The translations under genes and the position numbers were made by a program. From positions 1-24,678 of IMG/VR virus record IMGVR_UViG_3300032291_003076: a stretch of DNA of 24,678 bases, one strand, 5' to 3'. This DNA is from a virus. This document shows, one piece after another, positions 7,015 through 24,678 of this stretch. Under the pieces are notes generated by a model, which saw nothing but the letters and a program-made list of their open reading frames with translations, did not search any database and was not told where the DNA came from. How positions within the stretch are numbered: the first letter of the stretch is position 1; each line of letters starts with the position of its first letter.

Positions 7015-7836
7015 CTAAACGGACACGCGGCCCCGGAACGCCTTGGCTATGTCGCCGTTGGCAATGGCCTTTTCGAGTGCCGGCTTCATGAATGGCCGCT
7101 TGGGGTACGGGAAGATTCGTGTAATGTCGGTCGGCCGCCACTTGGACGAGTTGAACGGCCGCCTTCCCGTAGGCAGCCATCGAAATATTCGTTTGACCTG
7201 GCGGGCCTTTTGGTACTGCCCCTGCCACCGGCTTGAATCGCCGCGCGTGTCGCGGACGATTCGGTCCATCGTTTTCTTGCCGACCAGCGGGTACTTGTAG
7301 TTCAGCTCCCACGCTGCTTTCTGAATCTTTCCGCCGACTTCGTGGAGATGCGGGATGCCCCACTGCGCCCCCTTCTTGGATGGCCCCACCACGGCCGTAT
7401 GGGTCCGCAGGTCGTAGGCGTTGTAGAGATTGCGGCGGAACCCGAGCATGTGCCCGTAGGGAACGTGCGTGAACGGGGGCGTCCCGGCCGGCGATCCTTT
7501 CGGCGTCAGTATTTCGCTGATGCGTTGCCGGAGTTCTCGCTGCACGCTGGCCGGCACCCCCGGCATCGCGGCCATCTCCGCGAGCGTCTTGCCCGGGTTG
7601 TCTTTCATGACCTTGAGCTGCGGCTTCGCCATGCCCCGCTTTTTGATGGACCGCTTGGCGTAGTCCTTCACCCGCATCGACGCCTTCGAAAGCCCGTCGT
7701 ATTCAATCTGCGACAGGGCGGTTTTGATGGCGGCCCGGTCGAAAAACATATCGACCGTGACGCGGGTCGGTATACCGGGAACTTTGAAGCCGCGGCCGAA
7801 CGGGTTCTTATTGAACGTGGCCCCGAAAGCCTTCAC
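7015..7836 (-). CDS. HK97 gp10-like / phage morphogenesis (neck) protein
   Basis: The protein has 273 residues. The start is GTG 7836 in a GTGA overlap with the upstream gene. It is very basic (many Lys and Arg), with segments such as SMRVKDYAKRSIKKRG, SPAGTPPFTH and HEVGGKIQKAAWELNYKYPLVG. The pattern of an amphipathic N-terminal part (AALSQIEYDGLSKA) followed by PAGTPPFTHxP and HEFGG-like elements matches gp10-like head-tail joining or minor tail proteins. It is longer than the usual 110-170 residues because of insertions in the second half. It would act at the head-tail junction. The family call is by pattern and position. Confidence 0.68.
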   Translation of the reverse strand: MKAFGATFNKNPFGRGFKVPGIPTRVTVDMFFDRAAIKTALSQIEYDGLSKASMRVKDYAKRSIKKRGMAKPQLKVMKDNPGKTLAEMAAMPGVPASVQRELRQRISEILTPKGSPAGTPPFTHVPYGHMLGFRRNLYNAYDLRTHTAVVGPSKKGAQWGIPHLHEVGGKIQKAAWELNYKYPLVGKKTMDRIVRDTRGDSSRWQGQYQKARQVKRIFRWLPTGRRPFNSSKWRPTDITRIFPYPKRPFMKPALEKAIANGDIAKAFRGRVSV

Positions 7837-8297
7837 GCCGTCACCTTGGCCTGGCTGCGCCGGTATGTGACGGCAATATCCGCCAGAAAAATGCTCTGGT
7901 TCATCAGCGTGTCGCGGTCAAACGTGACGTTGTTGGCGATCCCGAACCAGTTGGTCCCGGCCGGCATGGCGGGCGTAGCCGCGGGCAGGGCATTGGAACG
8001 GATGCGGTCGGCAATCTGCGTCCGCAGGTTCACGAGCGCGTCCAAGTCGGCGGTGCCGGTGAACCGCTTGGCGACCGTGACGTGGACCTCGAACTCGAAC
8101 AGGTCCGACCCGTGCGTTATCTGCGTGATTTCCACGTTGCCCGGGATCACGGACACCCTGAGCGCGTCCATGTCGGCACCCTCAAACTCCGGCGTATACG
8201 CCCGGGCTGCGGTAATCGACGTATAGGTGCCGGTGTAGGTCGCGGCCGTCAGACTGGCGGCCAGAGCATCGGCAACGAGTATTTCGATAGCTTCCAC
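7833..8297 (-). CDS. Putative tail terminator / completion protein
   Basis: The protein has 154 residues and starts with GTG 8297, with AGGAG about nine bases upstream. Its fold reads as alternating helices and strands: a helix near the start (ILVADALAASL), a central VHVTVAKRF strand region, LDALVNLRTQIADRI, and a closing strand (SIFLADIAVTYRRSQ). This is the layout of tail terminator proteins that cap the tail before head joining. It lies between neck candidates and the gp10-like gene, the usual place for this function. The start region carries one copy of the repeated GAGTATTTCGAT motif. Confidence 0.6.
   Translation of the reverse strand: MEAIEILVADALAASLTAATYTGTYTSITAARAYTPEFEGADMDALRVSVIPGNVEITQITHGSDLFEFEVHVTVAKRFTGTADLDALVNLRTQIADRIRSNALPAATPAMPAGTNWFGIANNVTFDRDTLMNQSIFLADIAVTYRRSQAKVTA
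8277..8288 (+). repeat. Dispersed motif GAGTATTTCGAT, copy 1
   Basis: In minus-strand sense it encodes Ile-Glu-Ile-Leu (ATC GAA ATA CTC) at residues 4-7 of the tail terminator-like gene, using the rare ATA codon. Confidence 0.6.
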
Positions 8298-8324
8298 GAA
8301 CTAGGCTCCTGGGTTTGCGAGAAC

Positions 8325-8480
8325 TCACGTCCCGGTCGGCTCGTCAGGCGGAACGAACACATCGGCCTGCTCGTCGTAGCGGTAGCCGCCCCGGCCGTAG
8401 GCCGCCTCGTGCGACGGGTATTCGTCCGCTGTAGAAAACGGCACGATGGGCGCGATGACGTTGGTGCCGGGTGCGGTCAT
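8325..8480 (-). CDS. 51-residue protein with a head-fibre-like YPSHEAAYGRGGYR motif
   Basis: The gene starts at ATG 8480 in an ATGA overlap with the gene above and ends at TGA 8325. The product reads MTAPGTNVIAPIVPFSTA, then DEYPSHEAAYGRGGYR, then an acidic Pro-rich end. I recall a similar Y/F-P-T/S-H...YG-x-GG-Y/F-R segment near the N terminus of phage head-fibre or fibre-like proteins, where it precedes a longer body that is missing here. The gene fills what would otherwise be a 180-bp gap in a tightly packed region. Function is unknown; a structural or anchoring peptide is inferred. Confidence 0.65.
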   Translation of the reverse strand: MTAPGTNVIAPIVPFSTADEYPSHEAAYGRGGYRYDEQADVFVPPDEPTGT

Positions 8481-9172
8481 GCGACCCCTATCGAAATACT
8501 CCCCGTGACGGGGTAGAGGGATCGGTAGATGCGGTAGTCTCTTGCCGCCTGGCCGTCAAACGTCATGGACCGCACCGTCACCTGCCATGCCGTCACCCGC
8601 AAGCCGTTGACCTCGATGGCCGGCTCGCCAAAGCTGGCCGGCAGGACGATGTAGACGTACTGCGAGGCCGCCACCACCGTCCGCGTGAGTGCCCGCGACG
8701 ATTGCAGCTCGGCCGTCAACTGGGATTTGATTTGCGGGTCCGTGATGGCCGTAGCGGCCGACGCGCCGATGCACACCACCAGCAGCGTCGAGGCGGCGGC
8801 CGGCGTTTTGGTGGTTGCCATCGTGTGAATCCGCCGCACCTTTTGGGACCGGTCGGCCCATTGCCAACAGAACTGCGACCCCTCTGGAATTGACACAACG
8901 TAGGACTGACTCGCACCGTTCTCCGTCACCGTCACCTTGTCGCCGCGTTTTGGGTCCGCCGGCAGTTGGTCGCGGTGAATGAAGAAGTCTCTCGTCTCCG
9001 ACCGAATCATTTGGCCGGCGGCGTCCACCGCCTGCCACCGGCCGACCACCAGCGTTGCGTGACAGGTGCGCGACAGCAGCGATCCGGTCGGCAGATATTC
9101 CACGAACACAGAGAGATGATCCCGCCGCTTCTGCTCGAACCACGCTTCCCCGGCGGCGATCATGTCCTGCAT
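8477..9172 (-). CDS. Neck / head-completion-like protein fused to a C-terminal beta domain
   Basis: The protein has 231 residues. ATG 9172 was chosen because GGAG lies seven bases upstream. Residues 1-117 (GEAWFEQKRRDHLSVFVEYL, ESRDFFI-like SETRDFFIH, KRGDKV, then CWQWADRSQKVRRIHT) resemble a small neck protein seen ahead of tail completion genes. An internal Met at 118 begins a second part (ATTKTPAAAS), ending in SQYVYIVLPASFGEPAIEVNG and DYRIYRSLYPVTGSISI, a pattern I associate with C-terminal domains of phage head-fibre or tail proteins. The gene therefore looks like a fusion of two units that are often separate. Confidence 0.62.
   Translation of the reverse strand: MQDMIAAGEAWFEQKRRDHLSVFVEYLPTGSLLSRTCHATLVVGRWQAVDAAGQMIRSETRDFFIHRDQLPADPKRGDKVTVTENGASQSYVVSIPEGSQFCWQWADRSQKVRRIHTMATTKTPAAASTLLVVCIGASAATAITDPQIKSQLTAELQSSRALTRTVVAASQYVYIVLPASFGEPAIEVNGLRVTAWQVTVRSMTFDGQAARDYRIYRSLYPVTGSISIGVA
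8490..8501 (-). repeat. Dispersed motif GAGTATTTCGAT, copy 2
   Basis: It lies near the 3' end of the neck-like gene and is read there as Ser-Ile-Ser-Ile, a different frame and orientation from copy 1. Confidence 0.6.
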
Positions 9173-9182
9173 CGAAATACTC
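9171..9182 (-). repeat. Dispersed motif GAGTATTTCGAT, copy 3
   Basis: This copy spans the ribosome site and the first bases of the start codon of the gene starting at 9172, so it is outside coding sequence apart from its last two bases. Confidence 0.6.
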
Positions 9183-9198
9183 CATGGAGGGGCCACCG

Positions 9199-9238
9199 GG
9201 GCCGGGCGGCGAGGACAATCCCATCGGCCGCCCGGCCC
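9199..9238 (-). terminator. 12-bp GC hairpin downstream of the decoration protein gene
   Basis: The arms at 9199-9210 and 9227-9238 are perfectly complementary over 12 bp with a 16-base loop. They lie in the 83-bp gap after the DUF2190 gene. No T-run follows, so it may be an RNA-stability or weak termination element rather than a classical terminator. Confidence 0.5.
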
Positions 9239-9255
9239 GAATCAGCCGGCCCCGA

Positions 9256-9585
9256 TCAACCCTGGTTGATGAGGACCTTGACCGTCGTATCGCCCGTAGC
9301 CGCAGCCTCGGCGGCCTTGCCGGCCCGCTTGTTGCTGGTCGAGGTCGTCGTGATGTTGCCGGCCGTAGCGTCCCAGTAGACGATCGCGCCCTGGCCGATG
9401 GCACCGCTGGCCTTGGGCAGGATATAGCCGCCCTCGACCGAGAGAGCACCCTTGCGGTTGGCCGGGATCGCCACCTCCGCAACACAGAACAGGTCGTTGA
9501 GAACCACCACGTCGCCAACGGCCACAGCCGAGGACGGCGTGTAATCAATCTTGCAGTCGCCTTGATAGGCAGAAGCAGTACCCAC
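9256..9585 (-). CDS. DUF2190 family capsid decoration (cement) protein
   Basis: The protein has 109 residues. The start is GTG 9585, with an AGGTG ribosome site. The features of DUF2190 are visible: an early Gly-Asp segment, then the VAVGDVVVLNDLFCVAEVAIPAN stretch, GALSVEGGYILPKASG, GQGAIVYWDATAG and a closing TTVKVLIN strand. Members decorate and stabilise the capsid surface. It directly follows the major capsid gene, the expected place. It is bracketed by strong hairpins on both sides, which could set its high expression apart from its neighbours. Confidence 0.88.
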   Translation of the reverse strand: MGTASAYQGDCKIDYTPSSAVAVGDVVVLNDLFCVAEVAIPANRKGALSVEGGYILPKASGAIGQGAIVYWDATAGNITTTSTSNKRAGKAAEAAATGDTTVKVLINQG

Positions 9586-9637
9586 TAGATCACCTACTTT
9601 CTTGGTTTCGCGGAAAGGAAAAATCGTTGTTCGTCAC

Positions 9638-9666
9638 GCCGGGGGCGGGTTTCGCCCGCCCCCGGC
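9638..9666 (-). terminator. 12-bp GC hairpin between the capsid and decoration genes
   Basis: The arms GCCGGGGGCGGG (9638-9649) and its complement (9655-9666) are perfect, with a five-base loop. On the minus strand the run TTTTT comes about 16 bases after the stem, too far for a standard terminator. Partial termination or protection of the capsid mRNA 3' end is plausible. Confidence 0.55.
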
Positions 9667-9695
9667 TACGTTCTGCAATCGTCAGGCCGCTAGGT

Positions 9696-11612
9696 TCAAG
9701 CGGTCGCCACGCGGTAGGCGGCGAGGCTTTCGGCCTTGGACACGCCGAAATCCATGTAACCCCTCATCTGCACGCCCAGCAGGCTGTAGTCGGCCTGCAC
9801 CTGCTCGATGGTCGGAACCTGCTGACCGTTGAGAAACACCACGTCGAGGGCAGGCAGGTCCAGAGCATCGGCCATCAGCCACCACGTCGAGGACGAGCTG
9901 AGATAGGCACTCGTCACGACCCGGTAGCGACCGTTCATCACGTTCGCGTTGGGGGCCGCCGTCGTGTTGCCGGAGATCAGCAACGCGCTGGTCATCAGCT
10001 CCGCGGCGGTCAGCTCCAGCTCGGGCGGAACGAGCAGCACCCGCGGCGCGATGCCGAGGGGGTTGCCGTCCGGGTCTTTCAGCCGCCGCCATGCGGTCGA
10101 GGCCGACTTGAGGCTCGACAGGGAGAGGGCATTGCCCGCCGCTGCCGTGGCCGCCTGGTAGTAGCTGGCGTTGGACGCCTCGAACTCGGCCCAGATGGAT
10201 TCGTTCAGAGACAGAGCAGCACCACGACCGATCCTCTGCGGAATCTGCGACAGGGCGTTGGCATCGTCGTTGATGATGTCCTGCCGGGTGAGGCTGGTCT
10301 GGATGCCCCAAGTGTCGGCCGAAACCGAACGCCTGGTGTCCGAACCCTGCGCCACCTTCAACTCGCCGCCGTTGCCGACTTTCTGGAACTTGAAGCTGCC
10401 GTTGAGACGGAGCAAGTTGATGTTCTTGAAGTCGCTGACCGAACGAACCGCGGAAATGTTCTTCCACGTATCTTCGACCGACGTGAACCCCGCGAGCAGG
10501 AACTTGTTGACGAGGGCCGCCAGCAGGTTGCTCACCTCATGGGTCGCGAAGGCCGCCTGAAGAACCGGGCCGAGGTTGCCGCTCGAAAGCCGGTCGCTGC
10601 CGGTGTAGCTGTTGGCCTTGGCAGCCTTGAGCAACACCTGGCCCACGCTCACGTCTCGCCGGGCCTTGTCGGCCGCCTCGAGCACGCGGGCGTCGTACAC
10701 CTTCTCGATGTTTGGGAGCCCGCTCTGCATTGCGAGGGCGGCCTCCACCACCTTGCCGGAATCGACCTCCGGCTGCGAAACATGGATGCCGACCCCGCCG
10801 CGGCTCATCCGCAGCTCGGCCAGCTCCATCCGCTTCGCGAGGGCCTCGCGGGCCTCCCGCTCGGCCTTCAGCTCGGCCTTGAGGGTTTCGGTCGCACCGG
10901 GGGAATGGTCATCCACCGCTGCGCCGTCGCCGCCCTTGGCGTTGACGATGTTGGTGATAGGTTCCACGGCACCGTTCGCCGCGGCTTCCACCTTGTCGGT
11001 GGGCGAGAGATTGGCGTCGTGCGCCATATCGGTATCCTCGGTCGCCTCGGCGGCGATTGCCGCGGACGTTTGGGCGTCCGCTCCCATCAACACAATCGAG
11101 GTTTCGCGGAGCGCGGAACCACGAACAACGGAGATAGGGCCGTTGAACTCACGGCCGTTGACGGTCACGGACTGCCCGGCCGCCACGTTTTCGATGTTGC
11201 TGGTATCCGCGCCGATGGACGCCTGGAACCGCATCCCCTTGCGGGCGAGGGCGATCACCTTCTGTGCCGTGTCGCCTTCACCGATCAGTTCGCCGGAGAC
11301 GATGAGCTGCTGGCCGTCGTTGACGATCCTCGTGGACTGCCCGAGCACTGAGTCGATGCTGGCGTCGTGCCCCCACAGAATCGGGATCGACTGCCGGCTG
11401 TTGTCCATGCCCGACAGGTCAACCACGAGCGGGTTGCGGGACCACGACTGCCGGATCGACCGGCCGGTGTACGCCACCAGCTCGAACGCTGGCGTCATGC
11501 CGGCGTCGTCGGCGGCCTTGATCGAGAACTCGGCTTCGATGGCACAGATGCGGCCGGGGGCGGCTGACATTTTGTTCATGGCCTTGGTAGATGGTTGGTT
11601 TTTCTGTTTCAA
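9696..11612 (-). CDS. Prohead protease - scaffold - major capsid fusion protein
   Basis: The protein has 638 residues from TTG 11612, which overlaps the portal stop (TTGA) and has GAGG seven bases upstream; ATG 11579 is the alternative. Residues about 20-180 are an HK97-type protease: SIPILWGHD (His 82) and GMRFQASIGA (Ser 132) supply the catalytic His and Ser. Residues about 241-269 form a charged coiled coil (KAELKAEREAREALAKR), a scaffold-like delta segment. The last 290 residues resemble Mu gpT-like major capsid proteins (EDTWKNISAVRSVSDFKNIN, GIQTSLTRQDIINDD, PPELELTAAEL). One chain thus carries maturation protease, scaffold and shell subunit; how separate products arise is not visible. 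Confidence 0.85.
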   Translation of the reverse strand: MKQKNQPSTKAMNKMSAAPGRICAIEAEFSIKAADDAGMTPAFELVAYTGRSIRQSWSRNPLVVDLSGMDNSRQSIPILWGHDASIDSVLGQSTRIVNDGQQLIVSGELIGEGDTAQKVIALARKGMRFQASIGADTSNIENVAAGQSVTVNGREFNGPISVVRGSALRETSIVLMGADAQTSAAIAAEATEDTDMAHDANLSPTDKVEAAANGAVEPITNIVNAKGGDGAAVDDHSPGATETLKAELKAEREAREALAKRMELAELRMSRGGVGIHVSQPEVDSGKVVEAALAMQSGLPNIEKVYDARVLEAADKARRDVSVGQVLLKAAKANSYTGSDRLSSGNLGPVLQAAFATHEVSNLLAALVNKFLLAGFTSVEDTWKNISAVRSVSDFKNINLLRLNGSFKFQKVGNGGELKVAQGSDTRRSVSADTWGIQTSLTRQDIINDDANALSQIPQRIGRGAALSLNESIWAEFEASNASYYQAATAAAGNALSLSSLKSASTAWRRLKDPDGNPLGIAPRVLLVPPELELTAAELMTSALLISGNTTAAPNANVMNGRYRVVTSAYLSSSSTWWLMADALDLPALDVVFLNGQQVPTIEQVQADYSLLGVQMRGYMDFGVSKAESLAAYRVATA

Positions 11613-13369
11613 CTGAGAACCTCGTTGTCTGCTGCCCACTCGGCTTGAGCCCGCTCGTAGACCGATTCGGCAAACCGTCTCCCGGGGTCTCCCCCCCACA
11701 ATCCCCACGCGATCCTGCCGGCCGATGGGTAGCCCTTCTCGCCTGGCGAGAATCCTTGGCCCTTCTTGTCAACTTCGTGACGGGCGAAATAGCTCACCAT
11801 CCGGCCGATCGTGTCGAGACTGAGCGACTTCCCGTTGGCTATGTCGCGAGCGCGGGCCACCCCCACGGCCGTGCCGCCGCGGTTGAACTCGCGCCGCCAC
11901 TCCAACGCCCTCGCCGCCTCGGCCTGCGCGTCCTTGGGAGGGACGTAGCCGTCCGCTGCCTGCGTGCGCTCCGCGGCGGCCGGGGCCGCGGGCGTCGGCT
12001 GCGCTACTTCCAGCTCCAGCTCACGCATGAGCGTTTTCTCGGCGGCCCGCTGCCTGAGGATTTCCCGCCAATCGGTCCCCACCTTGCTGCACTCGTCGGC
12101 CAGCGTCGTCGTGTTGTTCGCGAGGCGGATCGTCTGAGCGTCGGCTTCCTTGGTCGGATCGACGTGCTCCCATCCCTGCCAAATCCAACGCCAATTCCAT
12201 TCGACGACCGGCGGTAGACCGTCCGGCAGGAGGCCCTTGATGAGGGCGGCCTCGTCCAGCCAATCCACGAGCAGGGGGTCGAGAATGTTCCGCTCCAAAT
12301 CCTCGCGGAGGCAATTCACGCTCTTGCGATAGACGAGGTAGTCGCCACGCATGGAGCTGTAGGACGCCTGCGATGAATCGAGGGCCGCGACGATGTAGGG
12401 CAAATTCAAACAGCGGGCGATTTGGTTGAGTAGTCGCTTTTCGAAATCGCTGTAGGTCGAAGTCGGATGCTCCGGCCGCATCTGCGTTGCATCCCACCCA
12501 TCGGGCAGGCTCATTGCCATGCCGCGAACAATCGGCATCGTGTCCCACGCCGGCATGGCGGCCGTGCCGGAGTCGCCGGCCGGGGCGTTCGTGTGAATCA
12601 AGGCGGCGAAGTCGGCGGCCGTCTCGGCCGCCTGGACGGTCGCGAGCGTGAACCGCCGGAGCATCGCGAACAGCTCGAGGGCCGGGACGATTTCCCCTAC
12701 CCCCCGATGCTGACCCGGCCGGACCTTGTTGGCCCAGTGCAGAATCCGGTCGGAGCTGACCCACTCGCCTGTGTAGCTCGTCCACGTCAGCGAGCCGGGA
12801 TGGTGTTCGAGAATGTGCCACTCGACCACGTTGCCCGATTCGTCCAACTTGATGCCGTCGATTTGGCCTAGTTGCAGAATCCACTGCGGATTCGCCACCT
12901 GGTCGGCCTCGAGCAGCTCGATGTCGAGCTGAACGCCGTCGAGCTTGCGGTTGGTTTTCTTGCGGGCGAACACTTCGCCGTCCACCGCGCGAGCCCGCCG
13001 CATCACGCGGAGCTTGGCCGCTAGGTCGATAGAACGAGCCCACTCGTGGACGTTGTGCTCCACGCCGCGGACGTTGGTATCCTCCGGCTGGACGCCCGGG
13101 ATGATGAGCTGCAGCCGGGGGCCGGTGCCCACCAAATCGGTCGCGAGCGTCGAGAGCATCCCAGACAGATACGAGTTGTTGTCGGCCTCGTACCGTGCCC
13201 GAGCCCGCAGCGTCCGGCGGACCCCGGGGTGCAGGGCCGCGTCGGCACTCCACCAATCGGATTGTGCCCAATGCCGCTGATTGTTCGGCGTCGTCTGTGC
13301 GGCGTCGTACCGGGCCTGCACAGGTGCAGGCTGAACGGGTTTACGCGAGAAAAAAGACGGCAGCTTCAC
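11609..13369 (-). CDS. Portal protein (lambda gpB type) with an additional C-terminal domain
   Basis: The protein has 586 residues. GTG 13369 was chosen because the frame above it overlaps the gene ending at 13377. Residues about 10-460 show the lambda-type portal pattern: YDAAQTT, RRTLRARARYEADNNSYLSGML, then EVFARKKTNRK, PYIVAALDSSQASYSSMRGDYLVYRK near 320-345, and ERNILDPLLVDWLDEA. Residues about 483-575 carry a separate module (LEWRREFNRGGTAVGVARARDI, MVSYFARHEVDK, GEKGYPSAGRIAWGLWGGD) that I have seen in other phage head proteins but cannot name. The portal forms the dodecameric DNA entry ring. Its stop is coupled to the protease-capsid start. Confidence 0.88.
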   Translation of the reverse strand: MKLPSFFSRKPVQPAPVQARYDAAQTTPNNQRHWAQSDWWSADAALHPGVRRTLRARARYEADNNSYLSGMLSTLATDLVGTGPRLQLIIPGVQPEDTNVRGVEHNVHEWARSIDLAAKLRVMRRARAVDGEVFARKKTNRKLDGVQLDIELLEADQVANPQWILQLGQIDGIKLDESGNVVEWHILEHHPGSLTWTSYTGEWVSSDRILHWANKVRPGQHRGVGEIVPALELFAMLRRFTLATVQAAETAADFAALIHTNAPAGDSGTAAMPAWDTMPIVRGMAMSLPDGWDATQMRPEHPTSTYSDFEKRLLNQIARCLNLPYIVAALDSSQASYSSMRGDYLVYRKSVNCLREDLERNILDPLLVDWLDEAALIKGLLPDGLPPVVEWNWRWIWQGWEHVDPTKEADAQTIRLANNTTTLADECSKVGTDWREILRQRAAEKTLMRELELEVAQPTPAAPAAAERTQAADGYVPPKDAQAEAARALEWRREFNRGGTAVGVARARDIANGKSLSLDTIGRMVSYFARHEVDKKGQGFSPGEKGYPSAGRIAWGLWGGDPGRRFAESVYERAQAEWAADNEVLS

Positions 13370-13376
13370 GCTATTT

Positions 13377-13664
13377 TCACCCGTAGGGTGGATACCCGGG
13401 AAGCCCGGCCATGCCGGGGGGCGGGTATACGCTGGTGGTTGCCGGATCGGGAGCACCCGATGCGTTTGGCGATACGGTTTGCGCGAACCGTAGGGCAGCG
13501 AACGGAGAGCGATTGGTGACGGCCGCCATCTGGATGGCGAACTTCGCCGCGGCCACCTGCTGGTCTAGGTCGTGCTGCTCGACTTCACCGGCATCGGTGC
13601 GGGCGCGCTTGGGCTGCGCGAGATTCGCGGCGATTGCTGCCAGAATGTCGTCGGTCGCGGACAT
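13377..13664 (-). CDS. gpW-like small head protein (putative)
   Basis: The protein has 95 residues from ATG 13664, with GGAG six bases upstream. Its first 45 residues (DDILAAIAANLAQPKRARTDAGEVEQHDLDQQVAAAKFAIQ) have the helix - short strand pair - helix layout of lambda gpW, a head-to-tail joining protein that likewise lies just before the portal gene. The C-terminal 30 residues are Pro/Gly-rich and probably disordered. It is the first gene of the head module and follows a gap with an extended -10 sequence. The gpW assignment is by pattern and place and is not secure. Confidence 0.62.
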   Translation of the reverse strand: MSATDDILAAIAANLAQPKRARTDAGEVEQHDLDQQVAAAKFAIQMAAVTNRSPFAALRFAQTVSPNASGAPDPATTSVYPPPGMAGLPGYPPYG

Positions 13665-13697
13665 AGGTACTCCGTGCGAGGGCGGTGCCCTAGCATT

Positions 13698-13707
13698 AGT
13701 GTACCAA
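13698..13707 (-). promoter_or_regulatory. Extended -10 promoter candidate ahead of the head module
   Basis: ATTGGTACACT on the minus strand (13708 to 13698) matches the 6993 site at ten of eleven positions. It lies 34 bp before the gpW-like start. A TTGACC exists upstream, but at an over-long spacing of about 22 bases. Confidence 0.42.
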
Positions 13708-13727
13708 TGTTCACACGCCCCAACGGG

Positions 13728-13808
13728 TCAAAGGAACTCGATCAGCAGCATTTCCTCGACCTCGGCGTCCAGATCGTCAAAGAAATCGGATTCGTCCGCG
13801 GTCCACAT
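13728..13808 (-). CDS. 26-residue acidic small ORF
   Basis: ATG 13808 has a strong ribosome site (GGAGG, six bases away) and the frame stops at 13728. The product is very acidic (MWTADESDFFDDLDAEVEEM, then a hydrophobic end LLIEFL). It fills the centre of a 234-bp gap between the small-protein cluster and the head module. The strong ribosome site and the all-acidic composition argue for a real peptide. No function is known. Confidence 0.5.
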   Translation of the reverse strand: MWTADESDFFDDLDAEVEEMLLIEFL

Positions 13809-13898
13809 GACGCACCTCCGAAAGCCGGGTTGATGCCGTCATTTTATTTGGCGGTAGCCGGCGTCCGGCGGGCGGATGCCCAGCGGCCCGATCGTCTG

Positions 13899-14105
13899 CT
13901 AGAGCGTTTCGGGCCTCGTGTCGAGTACCTCGAAGTGCCGCATGACCTCGCGAACACGAGGCCCCTCGTAGATGAAGTCGAGAGCGTAGACGTGAATGAC
14001 AAGGCCGGCGGCCAGCGGCATCGTCTCGCAGCCGTTTATCACTGGTCGGATCGCACCGTCGAGCGGCCCGCCGATAAACTCAAGGCGTCGAACGTCCGCG
14101 GTCAC
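13899..14105 (-). CDS. Small phage protein with a GGPLDGA motif
   Basis: The protein has 68 residues from GTG 14105, which shares a base with the upstream stop (TAGTG). The N terminus (RRLEFIGGPLDGAIRPV) shows the F-x-GGPLDG motif found in many short unnamed phage proteins. The rest is beta-like with a YEGPRVREVMRHF segment. There is no membrane segment. It is the last member of a cluster of five short overlapping genes after the terminase. The function is unknown. Confidence 0.65.
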   Translation of the reverse strand: MTADVRRLEFIGGPLDGAIRPVINGCETMPLAAGLVIHVYALDFIYEGPRVREVMRHFEVLDTRPETL

Positions 14106-14251
14106 TAGCCCCTCGCCGTCAGGTAGAGCCCCACGTTGGCGGCCGCATATCCAAGGTACGCAATAGCAAGGCCGTGCCGGCCCGCCATATACAAGTCAAC
14201 GGCCACTACGAGATAGATCACGCCGGTAAAGGCAATCAGCCACGGGCTCAT
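14105..14251 (-). CDS. 48-residue membrane protein with two helices
   Basis: The start at ATG 14251 forms an ATGA overlap with the gene above. The sequence has two hydrophobic spans, about residues 3-22 (PWLIAFTGVIYLVVAVDLY) and 26-45 (HGLAIAYLGYAAANVGLYL), joined by a short basic turn (MAGRHG). This is the topology of very small inner membrane proteins, including some holins. The neighbouring lipoprotein and exported protein make a lysis or envelope-modification role conceivable, but nothing in the sequence proves it. Confidence 0.6.
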   Translation of the reverse strand: MSPWLIAFTGVIYLVVAVDLYMAGRHGLAIAYLGYAAANVGLYLTARG

Positions 14252-14502
14252 GACGCCTCCACCCACGCGGCCGCTTCGAGCAACCACGCGGCCAGCTTGC
14301 GGAGCTGCTTGCCGTCGCCTTCGTCAAAGCACAGCAGTTCGACCTCAACGGCCTTGCCGCACTCGTGCGTTTCGTCGTCGTCCTGGAGCTTGACCGACCA
14401 CTGGGTGCAATGGGCCGCGGCCGACGACAGCTCGCCGCCGGGGTACCGCATGTTCCGGCCCATCCGCAACGGCCGCGGCTTACTGACCTTCGACTTTGTC
14501 AT
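14248..14502 (-). CDS. Hypothetical small protein
   Basis: The protein has 84 residues from ATG 14502, with a GGAG element; it overlaps the lipoprotein gene by 23 bases. The N-terminal 30 residues are basic (MTKSKVSKPRPLRMGRNMRYPGGE). The middle is acidic with two Cys (VELLCFDEGD), and the end is an Ala/Trp-rich helix (LRKLAAWLLEAAAWVEA). No family was recognised. Its coupling to the membrane protein below suggests they are made together. Confidence 0.6.
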   Translation of the reverse strand: MTKSKVSKPRPLRMGRNMRYPGGELSSAAAHCTQWSVKLQDDDETHECGKAVEVELLCFDEGDGKQLRKLAAWLLEAAAWVEAS

Positions 14503-14719
14503 GACGCTCCGGCAGGACTCGCCTGCGTTTGGTGCATGGGCAATCGGGATGGTGCTCTAGGGCTGTGATTTGGAACACACCGTAGACGGCCGCGACCCAT
14601 GTGTGGCCGTCGTGCTGGATGTTCTGCAGGAGCATCGTGTGGGGCGGTCCAGCGTCCGGCTGCAAGGAGGAACAGCCGGACGCCAGAGCCACCACCACCA
14701 GTAGTGCGGTAGGCCGCAT
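14480..14719 (-). CDS. Small lipoprotein
   Basis: The protein has 79 residues from ATG 14719, sharing a base with the upstream stop (TAATG). Residues 1-15 form a lipoprotein signal (MRPTALLVVVALASGC) with the lipobox LASGC, so the mature N terminus would be a lipid-modified Cys. The short mature part holds a CPC pair and ends basic. In the phage context a small lipoprotein next to an exported protein and a membrane peptide recalls Rz1-type spanin or lysogenic envelope genes, but the mature part is not Pro-rich as in Rz1. Confidence 0.68.
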   Translation of the reverse strand: MRPTALLVVVALASGCSSLQPDAGPPHTMLLQNIQHDGHTWVAAVYGVFQITALEHHPDCPCTKRRRVLPERHDKVEGQ

Positions 14720-15018
14720 TAGCGGTATCTCACAACGGCGTACCAGCCACGCGCGCCGCGGGCCACGCCAATGTCGATTGGGGTTCGCCGTCCCCAGTAA
14801 CAACAATTGGAAATGGCTTTTTGCTCCGAAACGGTTGAGAAACCTATGCCCTCTGTCTGGCCGCATCCGGTATGGACGAGGGCACCCCGGCGGGCGAGAA
14901 CGACAGCGGCGTCCTGGGCGGACTGAACGACAACGGCACGGCGAGTGACGATGACGTTATCGGCCGAGGCCGTGACCGCGGACAGAGCGACGACAAGGGC
15001 AAGCAGAAGGGAACGCAT
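14719..15018 (-). CDS. Exported small protein with a signal peptide
   Basis: The protein has 99 residues from ATG 15018, with AAAGGA upstream. Residues 1-19 are a classical signal peptide (MRSLLLALVVALSAVTASA) with probable cleavage at A-D. The mature 80 residues include three Cys (one in HTGCGQ and two in SNCCYWG), which may form disulfides outside the cytoplasm. No enzyme motif is visible. It is the first gene after the terminase and is coupled to the lipoprotein gene. It could take part in lysis, superinfection exclusion or surface change, but the sequence does not say which. Confidence 0.68.
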   Translation of the reverse strand: MRSLLLALVVALSAVTASADNVIVTRRAVVVQSAQDAAVVLARRGALVHTGCGQTEGIGFSTVSEQKAISNCCYWGRRTPIDIGVARGARGWYAVVRYR

Positions 15019-15090
15019 GGAGCATCCTTTCGTTTGGGGGATCGGACCTCCCGCAGACTGCCATGCCCGGCATTAGCGTCAACCCACTTT

Positions 15091-17211
15091 CTACCGGCCC
15101 ATCCTCGCGAGCAGCTCGGCCCGCTTCGCCGCCATATCCTCTTTCGAAATACTCTTGCGCTCCCCGGCCGGTTTGGCCGCGGCCCCTACCGCCGAGATCC
15201 CGGTGTACGAGGCCGCCACCGCCGACCCCACGACACAGTCCCACAAATGATTGTCGCGGCCCGGGATCAGCTTCCACTCGTCCACGACCCGCATCTTGGA
15301 TTCGACGCGGACGGGAACCTCGCTCGCCATCTGCTCCGCGAGCATATCGTGACCCTGCCCGCCGTGGATCGTGAACGTCTGCACGTCACCGACCGGCAGC
15401 TTGCATCGTGACGCCACGAGCGTTTTCCATGCGTTCGTGTCGTAGAGGACGTGCCGCTGGCGTTGGATCGTGCTCGTCCGCCAGTTGGCCCCGACCCGCT
15501 CGCCCCGGTCGGGACTCTTGTCGCTGATGGTCGCGCCGCTGGCACCGACAAACCGGCCGTGCGTCGGCAGCACCCGCGGCCCCCACTTCGACCGGCGGGC
15601 AAAGTCCCTGACCACTCCCTGCGTCTGCGCCCAGTTGGCATCGACAAAGAGCTGGCCGACCCGGAGCACGGCGTCGTCGCTCTCCCGGGAGAACTCCCGA
15701 TCCAAGAGCATCGCGGCCACCGCCTCAAGGCCCGCGTGGATCCCGGCCTCCACACCCTCAACCCCGGCCGCCTTCGCAAGCGTTTTCTTGGCGTCCCGCA
15801 AAGAAAAGTACGCGCGGCCTTGGTCCGGGTAGGCTCCGTAGGCGACGAGATGCCCACGGAGCTGGTTGCCCCACGCCACCACGGCCCAGTAGAGCAGGGT
15901 TTGCTGAACGTCCACGAACGCGGTGAGTGTGTCGAGGCCCCGTGGCACGATCCACCTGGGCACTTCGATGACGCGGCGGCGCAGGTCGTCCGGCACGAGC
16001 CCCTGGCTGTTGGCCTCGTTCTTCAGCGGGCTCTGCTGGAACTCGCTCGCGAACACGTCCGCCCCGTCGTCAATGAGGGCGTTGTAGGCGTGTTGAATCG
16101 AACTGATTTCCGTATCGGGATCGAAGCAGCTCGCCCACGACACTTGGCACCCGGCGTCCATCGCGTTCCGGTTGTTGGCGTAGTAGGCGTTGGCTTCCTT
16201 GTGTGCTCTCGCCTGGTCGCCAACCAAATCTTTTGCGAACGAGCAACGCAGCTCGCGGTAGGTGTTCATCCACATTTCTTCATGGGCATCCGCGAACTTG
16301 CGGACCATCGGAATCCGCTCGCCTTGCCACGCGGGGTATTTCCCCTGGTCGAGCAACTGGTCAACCATGTCGTCGGTCTGGATGACCGTTGCGTTGACCA
16401 CGCAGGCCATTTGCTTGGTGTGCCCGGCCAGCTTGATGACACTCTTCAAGAGTATTTCGAGCCGGGCCTGGCACTGGACCGGCGACCGGGCCGACTCGCG
16501 GGTCTGCGGATCGTCCACGATGGTGAAGTCTGGCCGGAGCTGCTTGCCGTCCGGCGTTTTCCACCGGAGGCCAAGGATCGAGCCGGTGAGGCCGCGGCTG
16601 GTGAGGATCGACCCGGCCGACACACTGCCGTCGATCGCGGGGAACACGAGCGTGTCTTTCTTCCACCCGATATGCGTCCGCTTGCCGTTGTGCGTCTGGC
16701 TGTTGCATCGCTGCGGCTTTCCCTCAAGGGCGCGGATCGCATGGCAGACTTCGGGGAAATCCTCGTAGAGCAGGTCGTTGTCGGATAGCTCGGTGCGGAT
16801 CGAGTTAATGGCCTTGGCGGCTAGATCCGCCTCGGCCGCGAATATCGCCCCGAACTTCCGATGCCCGTAGAGCACCGCCCACAGCAGGGCGTTTTCCGAA
16901 ATGGTCGATTTGGCGAATCCTCTGTAGACCGCGTTCGTGAACCGGCCGCCCCGGAGGATGCAGTCTTGAATCCGGCCGATAACCCGCTTGTGGTCGTCCG
17001 AGAACGGCGACAGGCCGGTGGAGAAGGGGAAGTAGGTCGTGAGGAACAGCTCGAGGTTAGAGCGGCAGCTCTCCCGCCGGTCGGGGTTGGCGACCTTGGG
17101 TATCTCGCCAATGTCCGAACCCTTGCGGGTCCGCTCCCGCGACCGCTCAATGTCGGCCAGCCGTTTCGATTCTGAGGCCCCTAGCGGGTCCGTAGAGGGC
17201 TTACGGGGCAT
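15091..17211 (-). CDS. Terminase large subunit
   Basis: The protein has 706 residues. ATG 17211 was chosen because GGAGG lies seven bases upstream. The packaging ATPase is at about 60-260, with a Walker A-like RGFAKST (97-103) and a Walker B-like FTIVDD (228-234). The nuclease domain follows at about 425-670 with acidic residues in the three expected places: Asp 434 (TAFVDVQQ), Asp 524 (LFVDANW) and Asp 658 in NHLWDCVVGSA. It pumps DNA into the prohead and cuts the concatemer. The length fits large gpA-like terminases. No small subunit gene was recognised upstream; a RuvC-like gene overlaps its start by 11 bases. Confidence 0.88.
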   Translation of the reverse strand: MPRKPSTDPLGASESKRLADIERSRERTRKGSDIGEIPKVANPDRRESCRSNLELFLTTYFPFSTGLSPFSDDHKRVIGRIQDCILRGGRFTNAVYRGFAKSTISENALLWAVLYGHRKFGAIFAAEADLAAKAINSIRTELSDNDLLYEDFPEVCHAIRALEGKPQRCNSQTHNGKRTHIGWKKDTLVFPAIDGSVSAGSILTSRGLTGSILGLRWKTPDGKQLRPDFTIVDDPQTRESARSPVQCQARLEILLKSVIKLAGHTKQMACVVNATVIQTDDMVDQLLDQGKYPAWQGERIPMVRKFADAHEEMWMNTYRELRCSFAKDLVGDQARAHKEANAYYANNRNAMDAGCQVSWASCFDPDTEISSIQHAYNALIDDGADVFASEFQQSPLKNEANSQGLVPDDLRRRVIEVPRWIVPRGLDTLTAFVDVQQTLLYWAVVAWGNQLRGHLVAYGAYPDQGRAYFSLRDAKKTLAKAAGVEGVEAGIHAGLEAVAAMLLDREFSRESDDAVLRVGQLFVDANWAQTQGVVRDFARRSKWGPRVLPTHGRFVGASGATISDKSPDRGERVGANWRTSTIQRQRHVLYDTNAWKTLVASRCKLPVGDVQTFTIHGGQGHDMLAEQMASEVPVRVESKMRVVDEWKLIPGRDNHLWDCVVGSAVAASYTGISAVGAAAKPAGERKSISKEDMAAKRAELLARMGR
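15143..15154 (-). repeat. Dispersed motif (GAGTATTTCGA), copy 4
   Basis: In the terminase 3' end it is read as Ser-Ile-Ser-Lys. The last base differs (GAGTATTTCGAA). Confidence 0.55.
16450..16460 (+). repeat. Dispersed motif GAGTATTTCGA, copy 5
   Basis: Inside the terminase gene it encodes Leu-Glu-Ile-Leu on the opposite strand, again using ATA. Confidence 0.55.
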
Positions 17212-17671
17212 TGGGGGCCTCCACACCCGTACAGTAGTCCGCAACGGCCAGAGCGGCCCATACATGCGACCGGACGCCGTACAGCGGGCCGGGCCTGCCC
17301 TTGGTGCCGACCGGGCCGTACTTGTCGAGCAACGCCTGGCGGATGTTGGCGTCCTTGGCCCGGGGGCTCCCGCAGAGGTGCAGTTTCACGTCCTTGCGGT
17401 ACACCAGCCGGTGAGGGCCGCGGTGCGCCTGCAGGAAGCGGCCGATCCACACGCACGTCTCGAACACTTCCCGGCCGACCGCCATGCCGTAGCTGGCGAT
17501 CATCTCGCAGGCGAGGTAGTTGCTGTTGATTTGGCACGAGGGCAGTTGGCCGCACTCGAGTATTTCGATAAGCCTGGGATTGGGCACAATCTCGGAGTCG
17601 AGCACCCGCTTGCCGTCCCACAGGACGTAGGCGGATTGAGTCGTGCCGGGGTCGAGGGCGAGGATTCTCAT
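17201..17671 (-). CDS. RuvC-like (RNase H fold) Holliday junction resolvase-type nuclease
   Basis: The protein has 156 residues from ATG 17671, in an ATGA overlap with the replication gene. The RuvC pattern is clear: MRILALDPGTTQSAYVLWDG with Asp 7, then an acidic residue in the second strand region (ACEMIASYG, Glu 56), then a C-terminal helix with His 136 and Asp 145 (SHVWAALAVADY). These supply the metal-binding residues of the RNase H-like fold. Length is near that of RuvC. In phages such enzymes resolve branched DNA before packaging, and the overlap with the terminase gene fits this. Confidence 0.82.
   Translation of the reverse strand: MRILALDPGTTQSAYVLWDGKRVLDSEIVPNPRLIEILECGQLPSCQINSNYLACEMIASYGMAVGREVFETCVWIGRFLQAHRGPHRLVYRKDVKLHLCGSPRAKDANIRQALLDKYGPVGTKGRPGPLYGVRSHVWAALAVADYCTGVEAPNAP
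17558..17569 (+). repeat. Dispersed motif GAGTATTTCGAT, copy 6
   Basis: In the RuvC-like gene (minus sense) it encodes Ile-Glu-Ile-Leu at residues 35-38, with the same four codons as copy 1 in an unrelated gene. Confidence 0.6.
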
Positions 17672-18498
17672 GCGACCGCCTCCCTCTGCTTCGCCTTCAA
17701 CTCCGCGAGCATCCGCTTGCGGGCTTCCTCGTCGGCCCCGGTCCACTCCCGGGGAGGCGGCTTGTCGTCCGGCCGGGGCGGGCCGGCGGCCCGCTTGGCG
17801 GCCTTGGGGCCGTCGTACTGGCCGCCGAGCAGACGCTCGACAAACCCCGGCTTGACGAACTGGATCAGCGTCACGGGGCTATCGAAATACTTCGCCCCAC
17901 GGAGACGGCCGAGCGCGGCGGGAACCTGCTCCCACCATCCAGGTTCCGCTAGGCGGTCCTCGGAACCGTCCGGCAGCTTGTGCGGCGACCACTTGGCACC
18001 CGGCCCCTTGTTCCATGCCTCCCGAAGTTCTGCGCAGCTCGCGCGGGGAGGAGGAGGAATTTCTTCTCTCCTAGTTCTTATCTCCTCTAGTGCGCTTTCG
18101 CGCACGGGGCCGTGCGCAGGAGCGCACGCACCCGTGCGCTGTTGCGCACCGTCACGGCTTGCGGCGGCCCGATCTGCATGATTGGCCCGTGTTTTGGCAC
18201 TTTTCGAGAATCTGCGCTCCCAGCCGGGGATTTCTACAGATTGCCCATCCTCCCCAAACGATAGCCAGCCGACAGATTCGACGGCCTGCCAGAAATCGGG
18301 GGTGCCGCCGAACATTCGACAGAGCCGCGGCATTGTCATGCGGGCGGTGCCGCCGTCCGCGTTGAGTCCGGCCCACGTCCAGAATCCGACGATCCGGCCG
18401 ACGATGAGGTAGCGATCCTCGCCGGTCAGGTCGATTAGTTCCTCGACCTCCGGCTTGCTCGCTAGGTTGCAGTCAATTTGAATCCACTCTCCGGCCAT
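17668..18498 (-). CDS. Putative phage replication initiator / replisome organiser
   Basis: The protein has 276 residues. ATG 18498 was chosen over the upstream frame because GGGAGGG lies eight bases away. The N-terminal 100 residues (GEWIQIDCNLASKPEVEELIDLTGEDRYLIVGRIVGFWTWA, then a beta-wing-like end SVEIPGWERRF) resemble winged-helix N domains of phage replication proteins. Residues about 108-155 form a low-complexity linker, and within its DNA lie three palindromic iterons. The C-terminal part (LREAWNKGPGAKW, WWEQVPAALGRL) is helical and ends in a basic Lys/Arg-rich tail. Such proteins bind the origin and recruit the host helicase. The iterons in its own gene, as in lambda O, support the call. 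Confidence 0.75.
   Translation of the reverse strand: MAGEWIQIDCNLASKPEVEELIDLTGEDRYLIVGRIVGFWTWAGLNADGGTARMTMPRLCRMFGGTPDFWQAVESVGWLSFGEDGQSVEIPGWERRFSKSAKTRANHADRAAASRDGAQQRTGACAPAHGPVRESALEEIRTRREEIPPPPRASCAELREAWNKGPGAKWSPHKLPDGSEDRLAEPGWWEQVPAALGRLRGAKYFDSPVTLIQFVKPGFVERLLGGQYDGPKAAKRAAGPPRPDDKPPPREWTGADEEARKRMLAELKAKQREAVA
17881..17892 (-). repeat. Dispersed motif (AAGTATTTCGAT), copy 7
   Basis: It encodes Lys-Tyr-Phe-Asp in the replication gene, a third reading register for the motif. The first base differs from the consensus. Confidence 0.5.
18058..18089 (-). other. A+T-rich, purine/pyrimidine-biased tract beside the iterons (probable unwinding element)
   Basis: Twenty-one of these 32 bases are A or T in a G+C-rich surrounding. 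The plus strand is almost all pyrimidine apart from a few A and one G. It directly adjoins the first iteron, the relation seen between lambda iterons and their unwinding region. Confidence 0.55.
18090..18149. repeat. Three palindromic iterons, GTGCGC-N4-GCGCAC, 22-bp period (probable replication origin)
   Basis: Units lie at 18090-18105, 18112-18127 and 18134-18149. Each is a perfect 6-bp inverted repeat around four variable bases (TTTC, AGGA, TGTT), and spacers are six bases. The 22-bp step puts all units on one helix face. They lie in the linker region of the initiator-like gene. Confidence 0.82.
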
Positions 18499-21318: not shown

Positions 21319-21533
21319 AGCAATCCTTCCTTTTTGAGAATGGCCGCCGCCTTATCCAGTGCCGCATCAAGGCACAGAGTGTCGGCGGGTTCCTGTTGGT
21401 AAATCCGTTGACCGACCCGCGATGCCCCCGCCCGCAACACTCGTGCGGCGCGGAACACTCGCAACAAATGAACCACCACGTCAGCCTGGCGGGCTTCTCT
21501 CGCCACCACTCTTGCAGCCGTGTTCACGCTCAT
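21315..21533 (-). CDS. Hypothetical small basic protein overlapping csrA
   Basis: The protein has 72 residues from ATG 21533, with GGAGGG upstream. It overlaps the csrA 3' end by 53 bases in another frame and couples to the ATPase gene by ATGA. It is helical and Arg/Ala-rich at first (NTAARVVAREARQADVVVHLLRVFRAARVLRAG), with a Leu/Ala helix at the end (LDAALDKAAAILKKEG). No family was recognised. The good ribosome site supports translation despite the overlap. Confidence 0.6.
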   Translation of the reverse strand: MSVNTAARVVAREARQADVVVHLLRVFRAARVLRAGASRVGQRIYQQEPADTLCLDAALDKAAAILKKEGLL

Positions 21534-21714
21534 AAAATCCCTCCGTGAGAACTCGCGGCGCATTGCTTTTGCAATCGTCGCGAACGATGACCACATCCCC
21601 GGGCGCGGTGAATCCGAGCTTCACCTGGTCGGGGCGAATCGAAACCACTTCGATTTCAATGCCGTACTTGGGGACAAAAATCTTCTGCCCCACCTTCCGG
21701 CCAAGAACCAACAC
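21481..21714 (-). CDS. csrA: CsrA/RsmA-type translational regulator
   Basis: The protein has 77 residues from GTG 21714, with AAGGAGG five bases upstream. The CsrA pattern is present from the first residue: MLVLGRKVGQKIFV, then IEIEVVSIRPDQVKLGFTAPGDVVIVRDD. Both RNA-contact arginines of the family are in place (Arg 6 and Arg 45, equivalent to Arg 44 of the E. coli protein). CsrA dimers bind GGA motifs in mRNA leaders, often over ribosome sites, and block or stabilise the message. The C-terminal 30 residues are a variable extension. As an early gene it may control host or phage mRNAs after infection. Confidence 0.88.
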   Translation of the reverse strand: MLVLGRKVGQKIFVPKYGIEIEVVSIRPDQVKLGFTAPGDVVIVRDDCKSNAPRVLTEGFYEREHGCKSGGERSPPG

Positions 21715-22566: not shown

Positions 22567-23034
22567 ATGCCCACCGCCCCGACCGACGTTGTTGATGCTC
22601 TGCAAGCAAGTTGCCGCCTGCACTTGACCGCGGTTGAGCATTACACGAGCTTGGCCGCCCACCTTGAGCGATGGGGCTACAGCTTGGGGGACCGCTACCG
22701 CGTGGACGCAGACGAGGAAGCCGAGCACCTGCAGCGGGTCATGGGCCGGCTGGAATACTTCGACGTGGCCCCGTCACTGGACCACAAACTGCCAACGTGG
22801 CCGCGGCACGACTACGCTGGCATCTTGAACGCGAACCTTTTGCTCGAGACGGCGGCCGCGGCCGTCGAGCGGGCGAATATCGCGGTCTGCCGCGAGGCCG
22901 GCGACGAACAAAGTGCGCTCGTGTTCGTTGAACTGCTGGCCGGCAGCGAGGCGTCGATCAGTCGTATTGAGGCGACTCAGAAGGTTATCGAGGAAATCGG
23001 CCTCGACAACTACCTCGCGACGTTTGCCGACTAG
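22567..23034 (+). CDS. Bacterioferritin-like protein with an incomplete di-iron site
   Basis: The protein has 155 residues from ATG 22567, with AAGGAG six bases upstream. It aligns along its length with bacterioferritin: HLTAVEHYTSLAAHLERWG, then DEEAEHLQRVMGRL, LLLETAAAAVERANIAVC, and the family ending EEIGLDNYL. By comparison with E. coli Bfr, Glu 51, His 54 and Glu 94 are kept, but Glu 127 and His 130 are both Ser here. Glu 18 is replaced by His 19, and the haem Met 52 is Ala. Ferroxidase activity of the usual kind is therefore doubtful. The four-helix fold may still form a cage or serve another role. It is the only plus-strand gene besides the integrase and looks like a moron or lysogeny gene. 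Confidence 0.8.
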   Translation: MPTAPTDVVDALQASCRLHLTAVEHYTSLAAHLERWGYSLGDRYRVDADEEAEHLQRVMGRLEYFDVAPSLDHKLPTWPRHDYAGILNANLLLETAAAAVERANIAVCREAGDEQSALVFVELLAGSEASISRIEATQKVIEEIGLDNYLATFAD

Positions 23035-23624: not shown

Positions 23625-24524
23625 ATGTATTCACGAAATGGGCCGCAGACGCTTGGAGCGTATGCGGCGAATTACAGTCTCTTACGAGACGTGCGGCCGG
23701 AAACGGTTCGCCAGTATCAGATCACCGCCCGCCTTTACGAGCGGTGGGCCGGCGGCCCCGCTCGGCTTGACGAGCTGGACGAGCAGAGCATTTCCGCCTG
23801 GCTTCGCGACTACGCCGCCAGCGGCGTCGAGCCGGAGACGGTTCGCAGCAAAAAGGTCGGGCTGTTGGCCTTGTGGCGGGCCGCCGCGGATGAAGGTTTG
23901 TGCGACCCCCCGACTCGCCGCGTCCGCTCAGTGAAGGTGCCGTACAAGGCACCCACATGCTGGGATTGGAACGAGATTACGATGCTGCTGGACGCCTGCC
24001 GGTCGCTCAAGCGGTGGCACCGGACGGGCCTGCGGCGGTCGGCATGGTTTGATTTGGCTATCCGCATTGCTTGGGACACTGGGCTACGGCAAGGGGACCA
24101 GTGGGCACTGCCGGTTTCGATGGTCCGGCCGGACGGCACCATCGCCATGTCACAGAGTAAGACGGGGAGGGCCGTCATGTGCCAGCTCTCGCCGTCCACG
24201 ATGGCCGCGGTGCGGCAGTCGCTCGAGGTCGCCCCCCGCGAGCTGCTGACGCCGTGGATGGCTTCACACGAGACTTTTGACGACCAGTTCAAGCGGCTGG
24301 TTGGAAAGGCGGGCATCCGGCCCGGGACGTGGAAGTGGGTTCGGCGGGCTTCGGCCACGGACGTCGAGATTCAGACGCCGGGATCGGCGTCGGCCCACTT
24401 GGGCCACGTTCCCGGCTCGCGGATCGCGGAGCGGAATTACCTCGACCCCGCGCAGCTCCGGCGGAATGTCGCGACCCCTCGCGAGCTTGTGCTTTCCGCG
24501 TTTCAAAATAGGGGCGGGGCATAG
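23625..24524 (+). CDS. int: Tyrosine recombinase integrase
   Basis: The protein has 299 residues from ATG 23625. An N-terminal SAM-like core-binding domain is at about 8-95 (LGAYAANYSLLRDVRPETVRQYQITARLYERW, then a VRSKKVGLLALWR helix). The catalytic domain follows at about 110-285, with Arg 155 (DTGLRQGD), Lys 179 (QSKTGR), Arg 240 (KWVRR), His 261 (LGH) and Tyr 272 as nucleophile. The first His of the HxxR motif is Lys 237 here, a change I associate with integrases of planctomycete elements. There is no good ribosome site near the start. It would recombine the tRNA-like core at 23353-23403 with the host tRNA-Arg gene. Confidence 0.9.
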   Translation: MYSRNGPQTLGAYAANYSLLRDVRPETVRQYQITARLYERWAGGPARLDELDEQSISAWLRDYAASGVEPETVRSKKVGLLALWRAAADEGLCDPPTRRVRSVKVPYKAPTCWDWNEITMLLDACRSLKRWHRTGLRRSAWFDLAIRIAWDTGLRQGDQWALPVSMVRPDGTIAMSQSKTGRAVMCQLSPSTMAAVRQSLEVAPRELLTPWMASHETFDDQFKRLVGKAGIRPGTWKWVRRASATDVEIQTPGSASAHLGHVPGSRIAERNYLDPAQLRRNVATPRELVLSAFQNRGGA

Positions 24525-24570
24525 GGATGGGCAGGGCAGGGCGGTCGGGTTGACGTATGTCAAGCGACCG

Positions 24571-24610
24571 GCTGTGACGGCTCCTGACGGCTCCTGACGG
24601 TCTGTGACGC
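24571..24610 (+). repeat. Four TGACG repeats in 10-bp phase downstream of the integrase
   Basis: TGACG occurs at 24575, 24585, 24595 and 24605, and again in phase at 24635; the two middle 10-bp units are identical (CTCCTGACGG). A TTGAC-GTAT-GTCAA inverted repeat lies just before (24550-24563). Binding of a protein on one helix face is suggested. Confidence 0.55.
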
Positions 24611-24678
24611 TGCCGCGAGCAGCGGCGGCGGCCTTGACGCTACGGGGGCCTTCGGGAGAGATTCGGGCCTTGGGTGGA

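Follow-up and report, generated by a model that had tools for sequence, protein, structure and literature searches.

Why should one short, asymmetric DNA word recur on both strands and in different reading frames of a phage genome? The question is raised by the viral record IMGVR_UViG_3300032291_003076 of IMG/VR, of which we analysed positions 1–24,678 (hereafter the window, that is, the whole stretch of 24,678 nucleotides, with a GC content of 62.8%). An initial annotation had noticed repeated copies of a 9-mer and suggested selection on DNA or RNA, as for a binding, recombination-stimulating, packaging or segregation site. Our comparison of the window with related phages leaves almost no room for doubt that the sites themselves are selected for, and the core, GTATTTCGAT, is best read as a binding site. 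An array of the same motif beside the attachment site, and its link to an excisionase-like gene, change the picture beyond that first proposal; both lie outside the window.

Exactly seven matches to GTATTTCGA were found on the two strands of the window (8279+, 8491−, 9172−, 15144−, 16452+, 17560+ and 17882−), against a mean of 0.07 and a maximum of 1 in dinucleotide shuffles. The initial annotation was thus right in expecting well under one copy by chance; its counts, its positions (correct within 2 bases) and its remark that both orientations and different frames are used were also confirmed. Six of the seven copies reach GAGTATTTCGA and four reach GAGTATTTCGAT. The most over-represented words of the window overlap the motif, with AGTATTTCGA-type words ranking first at k = 8–12. 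The consensus is G-R-GTATTTCGAT-R-G, i.e., GRGTATTTCGATRG, which is asymmetric and has almost no one-mismatch variants. The copies and two variants are located as follows.

8277–8288, plus strand: GAGTATTTCGAT, antisense over codons 4–7 (I-E-I-L) of the gene at 7833–8297 (minus strand); kept in the closest relative, L039.
8490–8501, minus strand: GAGTATTTCGAT, at a gene junction, in the end of gene 8477–9172 and just upstream of the start of 8325–8480; kept in L039.
9171–9182, minus strand: GAGTATTTCGAT, filling the Shine-Dalgarno-to-ATG spacer of gene 8477–9172; kept in L001, L039 and L056.
15143–15154, minus strand: GAGTATTTCGAA, towards the 3' end of terminase (column 698 of the alignment); kept in L001, L039 and L056, absent from L002–L004.
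16450–16461, plus strand: GAGTATTTCGAG, antisense in the terminase gene (alignment column 259); lost in L039, core kept in L001–L004.
17558–17569, plus strand: GAGTATTTCGAT, antisense in the RuvC-like resolvase gene; kept in L001–L004, where the flanks differ.
17881–17892, minus strand: AAGTATTTCGAT, sense in the replication-initiation gene (Y-F-D); kept in L001–L004.
7179–7190, minus strand: GAATATTTCGAT, a one-mismatch variant; not kept in L039.
7507–7518, plus strand: CAGTATTTCGCT, a two-mismatch variant; not kept in L039.

The expectation that relatives would conserve the sites held in part: in L039 the copies at 8277, 8490, 9171 and 15143 are retained and that at 16450 is gone. The variants near 7179 and 7507, which had been listed with the motif, are both missing there and are probably not functional copies. 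At the position of the 8277 copy, near the start of the gene homologous to that at 7833–8297, the word is present in records G007, G008, G009, G010, G011 and G014. The counterpart of the 17881 copy in other relatives has the same core with changed flanks.

Relatives were collected by a terminase search, which gave 66 viral loci. A search of the whole window against phage records returned no match, and a terminase search of genome contigs returned no relative. In many of the 66 loci no word is more enriched than this core, whose flanks are lineage-specific (GAGTATTTCGAT or GGTATTTCGAT). Among 27 whole records the word is present in 26, reaching 15 copies in 41 kb, and reversed-pattern controls gave zero; record G020 has no copy. 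The specificity is near all-or-none. The 10-mer occurs 87 times in 15 records (478 kb), and each of its 30 single-substitution neighbours occurs 0–8 times; those with more than four copies are changed only at the last two positions, and reversed controls occur 0–1 times.

Could the encoded proteins account for the word? When synonymous codons were shuffled within each gene, 11 records gave a mean of 6.3 and a maximum of 13 coding copies against the 65 observed, and for the window alone the six coding copies compare with a mean of 0.39 and a maximum of 2. The codon-preserving check proposed by the initial annotation therefore came out in favour of selection. In a codon alignment of 67 terminase genes the word stands at columns 259, 423, 509, 550 and 698, and once at 324, and most of these columns are restricted to particular lineages. 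At least one copy is found in 41 of 58 long terminase genes, where 1.7% would be expected. At column 509 the amino acids change too (RVAIEIL with the motif, AVAAMLL in many others). The remark on the rare ATA codon was borne out: terminase copies of the motif use ATA (15 of them at column 259), and motif-free relatives mostly have ATC or ATT. Since the core at 17558 is kept between differing flanks and the terminase gene offers alternative positions, the sites turn over; on the aligned sequences, a site is kept somewhere within a region and not at one fixed codon. Such turnover argues for selection on DNA and not on protein.

The layout was analysed for 57 dereplicated dispersed sites, with genes taken from a purpose-written, simple codon-usage caller. 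There was no orientation bias with respect to the gene (24 on the same strand, 19 on the opposite, p = 0.54). Most copies lie inside genes, and 14 of the 57 are intergenic. Gene starts are preferred, with 20 of the 57 sites within 30 bp of one against 9.3% expected (p = 1 × 10−7), and several dispersed copies exactly fill the spacer between Shine-Dalgarno sequence and ATG. The copy at 9171 had been described as covering a ribosome site and does sit between the Shine-Dalgarno sequence and the start codon; copies at this kind of junction occur in other records too. The spacing along genomes did not differ from random, and the two groups into which the window copies had been divided (8.2–9.2 and 15.1–17.9 kb) are no more clustered than randomly placed sites.

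Related phages also carry the motif as a small array beside the attachment site. The window encodes a portal protein, a GpA-type terminase large subunit, a RuvC-like resolvase, a replication initiation protein and Sak4-like, CsrA-like, ferritin-like and Cro-like helix-turn-helix (HTH) proteins, together with a tyrosine integrase. With this gene content, the window is part of a temperate phage. Its end and the continuation in relative L158 read as follows.

23625–24524, plus strand: tyrosine integrase that seems to lack an N-terminal arm-binding domain; it shares 95% identity with the integrase of the array-bearing L158.
24525–24678, plus strand: integrase-side attachment region, matching L158 up to the core; the record stops at ...TTGGGTGGA.
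L158, past the point of the window end: core GTTCGAAGCCGGGG, then array copies at L158 1548 and 1592, then the gene for a protein that we call HTH198 at L158 1871–2467.

In relatives, 2–4 motif copies, often a whole number of helical turns apart, are grouped in noncoding DNA past the integrase gene, 75–200 bp from the attachment core (approximately TTCGNAGCCGG) and 250–400 bp before the HTH198 gene. Their spacings cluster at 21–22, 32–34, 43–44 and 54–55 bp, with some outliers. The periodicity is near 11 bp (p = 2 × 10−4 against a uniform null, after dereplication and with ancestry not fully corrected). The arrays include the variant GTATTTCGCAAG, and L035-type arrays contain inverted pairs of the form AGTATTTCG-ATTC-CGAAATACT. 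A scan for the pair pattern hit 32 of 2.9 million viral contigs, and 27 of these are GC-rich contigs of the motif-bearing phage family. The same search over 257 billion bases of cellular genomes gave 63 stretches; these look like chance hits or simple repeats and were set aside. A composite of hairpin and motif was also considered for the dispersed copies (a 5' stem of at least 5 bp at 27%, against 18% in controls); it was rejected because many of the stem examples lie in the GC-rich array.

The window record ends exactly at the attachment core, and the contigs of many relatives break at the same core, which suggests either that integrated and free forms were mixed in the source samples or that records were trimmed at the prophage edge. 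Because the window end matches L158 and the array of L158 lies beyond the core, we infer that the array of the window phage itself lies just past the end of the record, about 150–200 bp outside the window.

Which protein would read the word? HTH198 has 190–200 residues and is the first gene past the attachment site; its gene follows nearly every array that is long enough to judge. Its C-terminal part resembles HTH_17 and excisionase profiles, with matches below the curated Pfam cut-offs. The AlphaFold model (mean pLDDT 88.5) is helical in its N-terminal part, which is followed by a winged helix. In Foldseek searches the nearest structure to the C-terminal domain was Xis of mycobacteriophage Pukovnik, with BldC, RacA and Tn916 Xis also listed. 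The modelled fold thus hints at an excisionase-like winged-helix protein. An alignment-based scan found 51 new loci with full-length HTH198 and 21 in which only the C-terminal part is alike. The density of the word is 2.43 per 10 kb in the former and 0.25 in the latter, and nine loci with the C-terminal part only and a related integrase have one copy in 124 kb. Among these sequences the word tracks full-length HTH198, and not the integrase, Sak4 or Rep. Small Cro-like or MerR-like HTH proteins encoded next to the integrase gene were rejected as unlikely binders, as they are exchanged from clade to clade without loss of the word. Integrase arm sites were likewise rejected: the integrase apparently has no N-terminal arm-binding domain, and its core-binding SAM-like match starts at residue 13 of 299.

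Taken together, we lean slightly towards HTH198 as the binder, and the protein that binds GTATTTCGAT looks like one so far undescribed; in the open literature searched, we found no description of the motif string as a phage site. Our proposal is that GTATTTCGAT is a double-stranded DNA site of a phage-encoded binder, probably HTH198, that controls the lysogeny/lytic switch, a reading to which we give a little less than an even chance. HTH198 would bind the array by the attachment core cooperatively, on one face of the helix, and would bind singly at roughly 5–12 sites scattered over the prophage. Binding at the array would shape the excision complex at the attachment site. Binding at the dispersed sites, possibly bridged to the array, would block transcription or translation starts as well as transcription elongation, and the net effect would be control of the choice between lysogeny and lytic growth. 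That the outcome of binding is repressive is put forward tentatively. A broader version is rather doubtful: a protein of the excisionase type, extended by a helical domain, may have become a genome-wide regulator that joins excision and silencing of the whole element in one nucleoprotein structure. Such a regulator would nucleate on the phased array and contact sites that are strict in sequence, free in orientation and freely relocated.

Several observations weigh against this proposal. The best Foldseek E-value is 0.07, with a target TM-score of about 0.7 for the winged-helix part only, so that the structural match is a fold hint. The array of G018 has GTATTTCGCAAG and most of its dispersed copies keep GTATTTCGAT. 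A distance of about 3.8 kb separates the HTH198 gene from a weak array in the L209/L210 relatives. The loci that lack full-length HTH198 also belong to more distant phages, which means that the co-occurrence of word and protein is partly confounded by ancestry. A wing residue of HTH198 differs where the array variant differs, in only two independent changes. Finally, scattered single sites are unlike those of known excisionases, whose repeats are spaced by roughly one helical turn and whose binding to single sites is weak (PMC7498355).

An unlikely alternative is that the word marks segregation or nucleoid-organising sites, the array being a centromere-like point of nucleation and the dispersed copies secondary sites, as with N15 partition sites, Noc or RacA. 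The sites would then keep replicating or prophage DNA organised and control no gene. Independence of orientation, tolerance of any position within a gene and strictness of sequence would all fit, and RacA is among the structural neighbours of HTH198. However, these phages carry integrases, and we noticed no ParA-like gene in either the window or the array loci, where no systematic search was made. ParB/parS-type centromeres have palindromic sites and a parAB operon; the consensus here is asymmetric, though the L035-type arrays contain inverted pairs. The enrichment at gene starts is not needed for segregation, but could arise if sites are cheaply placed in spacers. Another idea is that the array serves the attachment site only, by excisionase binding, while the dispersed copies belong to a separate process using the same protein. 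In the loci read, the array stands 75–200 bp from the core, which agrees with this, as does the excisionase-like fold of HTH198; but an attachment function alone does not explain 65 selected coding copies far from the attachment site, and we consider it quite improbable.

The remaining explanations are weaker still. A host-encoded factor, such as one that reads a Chi-like hotspot, might recognise a word that the phages carry to exploit the host. DNA uptake sequences and Chi sites are short, strict words that occur on both strands and inside genes and turn over in position, and the phage word has this look of an enzyme-read word. Uptake sequences and Chi words are enriched in the cellular genome. 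In contrast, the phage word was not enriched in the sampled planctomycetes, which may not include the host: the window has 243 copies of GAGTATTTCGA per Mb and five of their genomes about one per Mb, and the 14-mer GAGTATTTCGATAG is in only 5 of 392 Planctomycetota genomes. Terminase relatives in 53 of these 392 genomes are distant, reaching 47% at most across the greater part of the protein. A phased array by the attachment site is not expected for a host factor either. On these sampled genomes we set aside a host Chi-like word, regard the recombination-stimulating site of the initial annotation as disfavoured, and give a host factor of any kind little chance. A packaging or replication signal, bound by the terminase or the replication initiator, is slightly less probable again. 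Arrays of direct repeats do resemble cosB R sites or iterons as these are generally known, but the sites are not evenly spaced, and loci with related Rep, Sak4 and even terminase that have no full-length HTH198 lack the word. Least probable of all is an RNA-level element acting in translation control or as structured RNA at start codons. The copies exactly between Shine-Dalgarno sequence and ATG would suit it, and the phages encode CsrA; antisense copies are, however, about as many as sense copies, and adjacent hairpins are only modestly enriched. Because both strands are used within genes, a role in RNA is unlikely. Of the selection on DNA or RNA first suggested, selection on the nucleic acid is thus strongly supported and the RNA part is disfavoured.

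To return to a phage-encoded binder, the P1 C1 operators and Apl may serve as working analogies for the motif network. P1 has 22 asymmetric, 17-bp C1 repressor operators dispersed over its genome (PMC8546580). The present sites are likewise asymmetric, numerous and dispersed on a temperate phage genome; they differ in sequence, in the near-invariant core, in the array at the attachment site and in the excisionase-like candidate binder. The stoperators of cluster A mycobacteriophages are 13-bp asymmetric sites for a monomeric repressor; they are oriented with transcription and found in the short gaps between genes (PMC6550527, PMC9283540). The present system shares with them a temperate phage genome over which asymmetric sites are scattered, some of them close to gene boundaries, and a candidate binder of two domains. 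However, our motif shows no orientation bias and most copies are within genes; because the sites neither follow transcription nor sit mainly in intergenic DNA, we did not classify them as a stoperator system. Apl of phage 186 is an excisionase that binds the attachment site, is encoded by the first early gene and also regulates transcription (PMC7498355). Like Apl/Cox, the present phages have direct repeats with helical phasing by the attachment site and a winged-helix gene beside it; unlike Apl/Cox, the repeats are 2–5 turns apart instead of one, the protein has an extra helical N-terminal domain, and dispersed sites extend over the genome.

Few phages (P1, cluster A mycobacteriophages) are known to have dispersed operator networks. 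The present motif network comes from phages that have not been cultured; by terminase, their nearest cellular relatives are in Planctomycetota. It is visible from sequence alone, and because sites turn over within conserved genes, the force that keeps them can be measured from alignments. A single candidate protein can be named and expressed; if the proposal is true, excisionase-type proteins extend to genome-wide control.

Some further features of these loci were recorded. Ahead of the HTH198 gene, a conserved TGCCAAGTGTCCA-like element was recognised by eye, together with an A/T tract and a sigma-70-like promoter (L158 ~1780–1870, L010 ~2040–2200, L035 ~1000–1150); the region of this element is possibly the operator of a lysogeny repressor. 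Lineage-specific short tandem repeats of 7–8 bp also occur upstream of the gene (L286 211–302, L249 328–448, L255 4–67), and an ArdC-like anti-restriction gene lies just after it (L158 2571–3512). In the window, a CsrA-like RNA-binding regulator (PF02599) is encoded at 21481–21714, and CsrA-like genes were seen in relatives too. Between it and the integrase gene, at 22567–23034, lies a ferritin/Dps-like gene (PF00210), which is also found in L001, L003 and L004. Lastly, many early genes of some lineages share a uniform leader, AGGAGCCCGAACCC-ATG (L254 8937–13498, L259 2431–6720, L260 1193–4807), and the gene leaders of other lineages are CCACAACC (L202, L208) and CCCCGAACGTGGAAAC (L209, L210).
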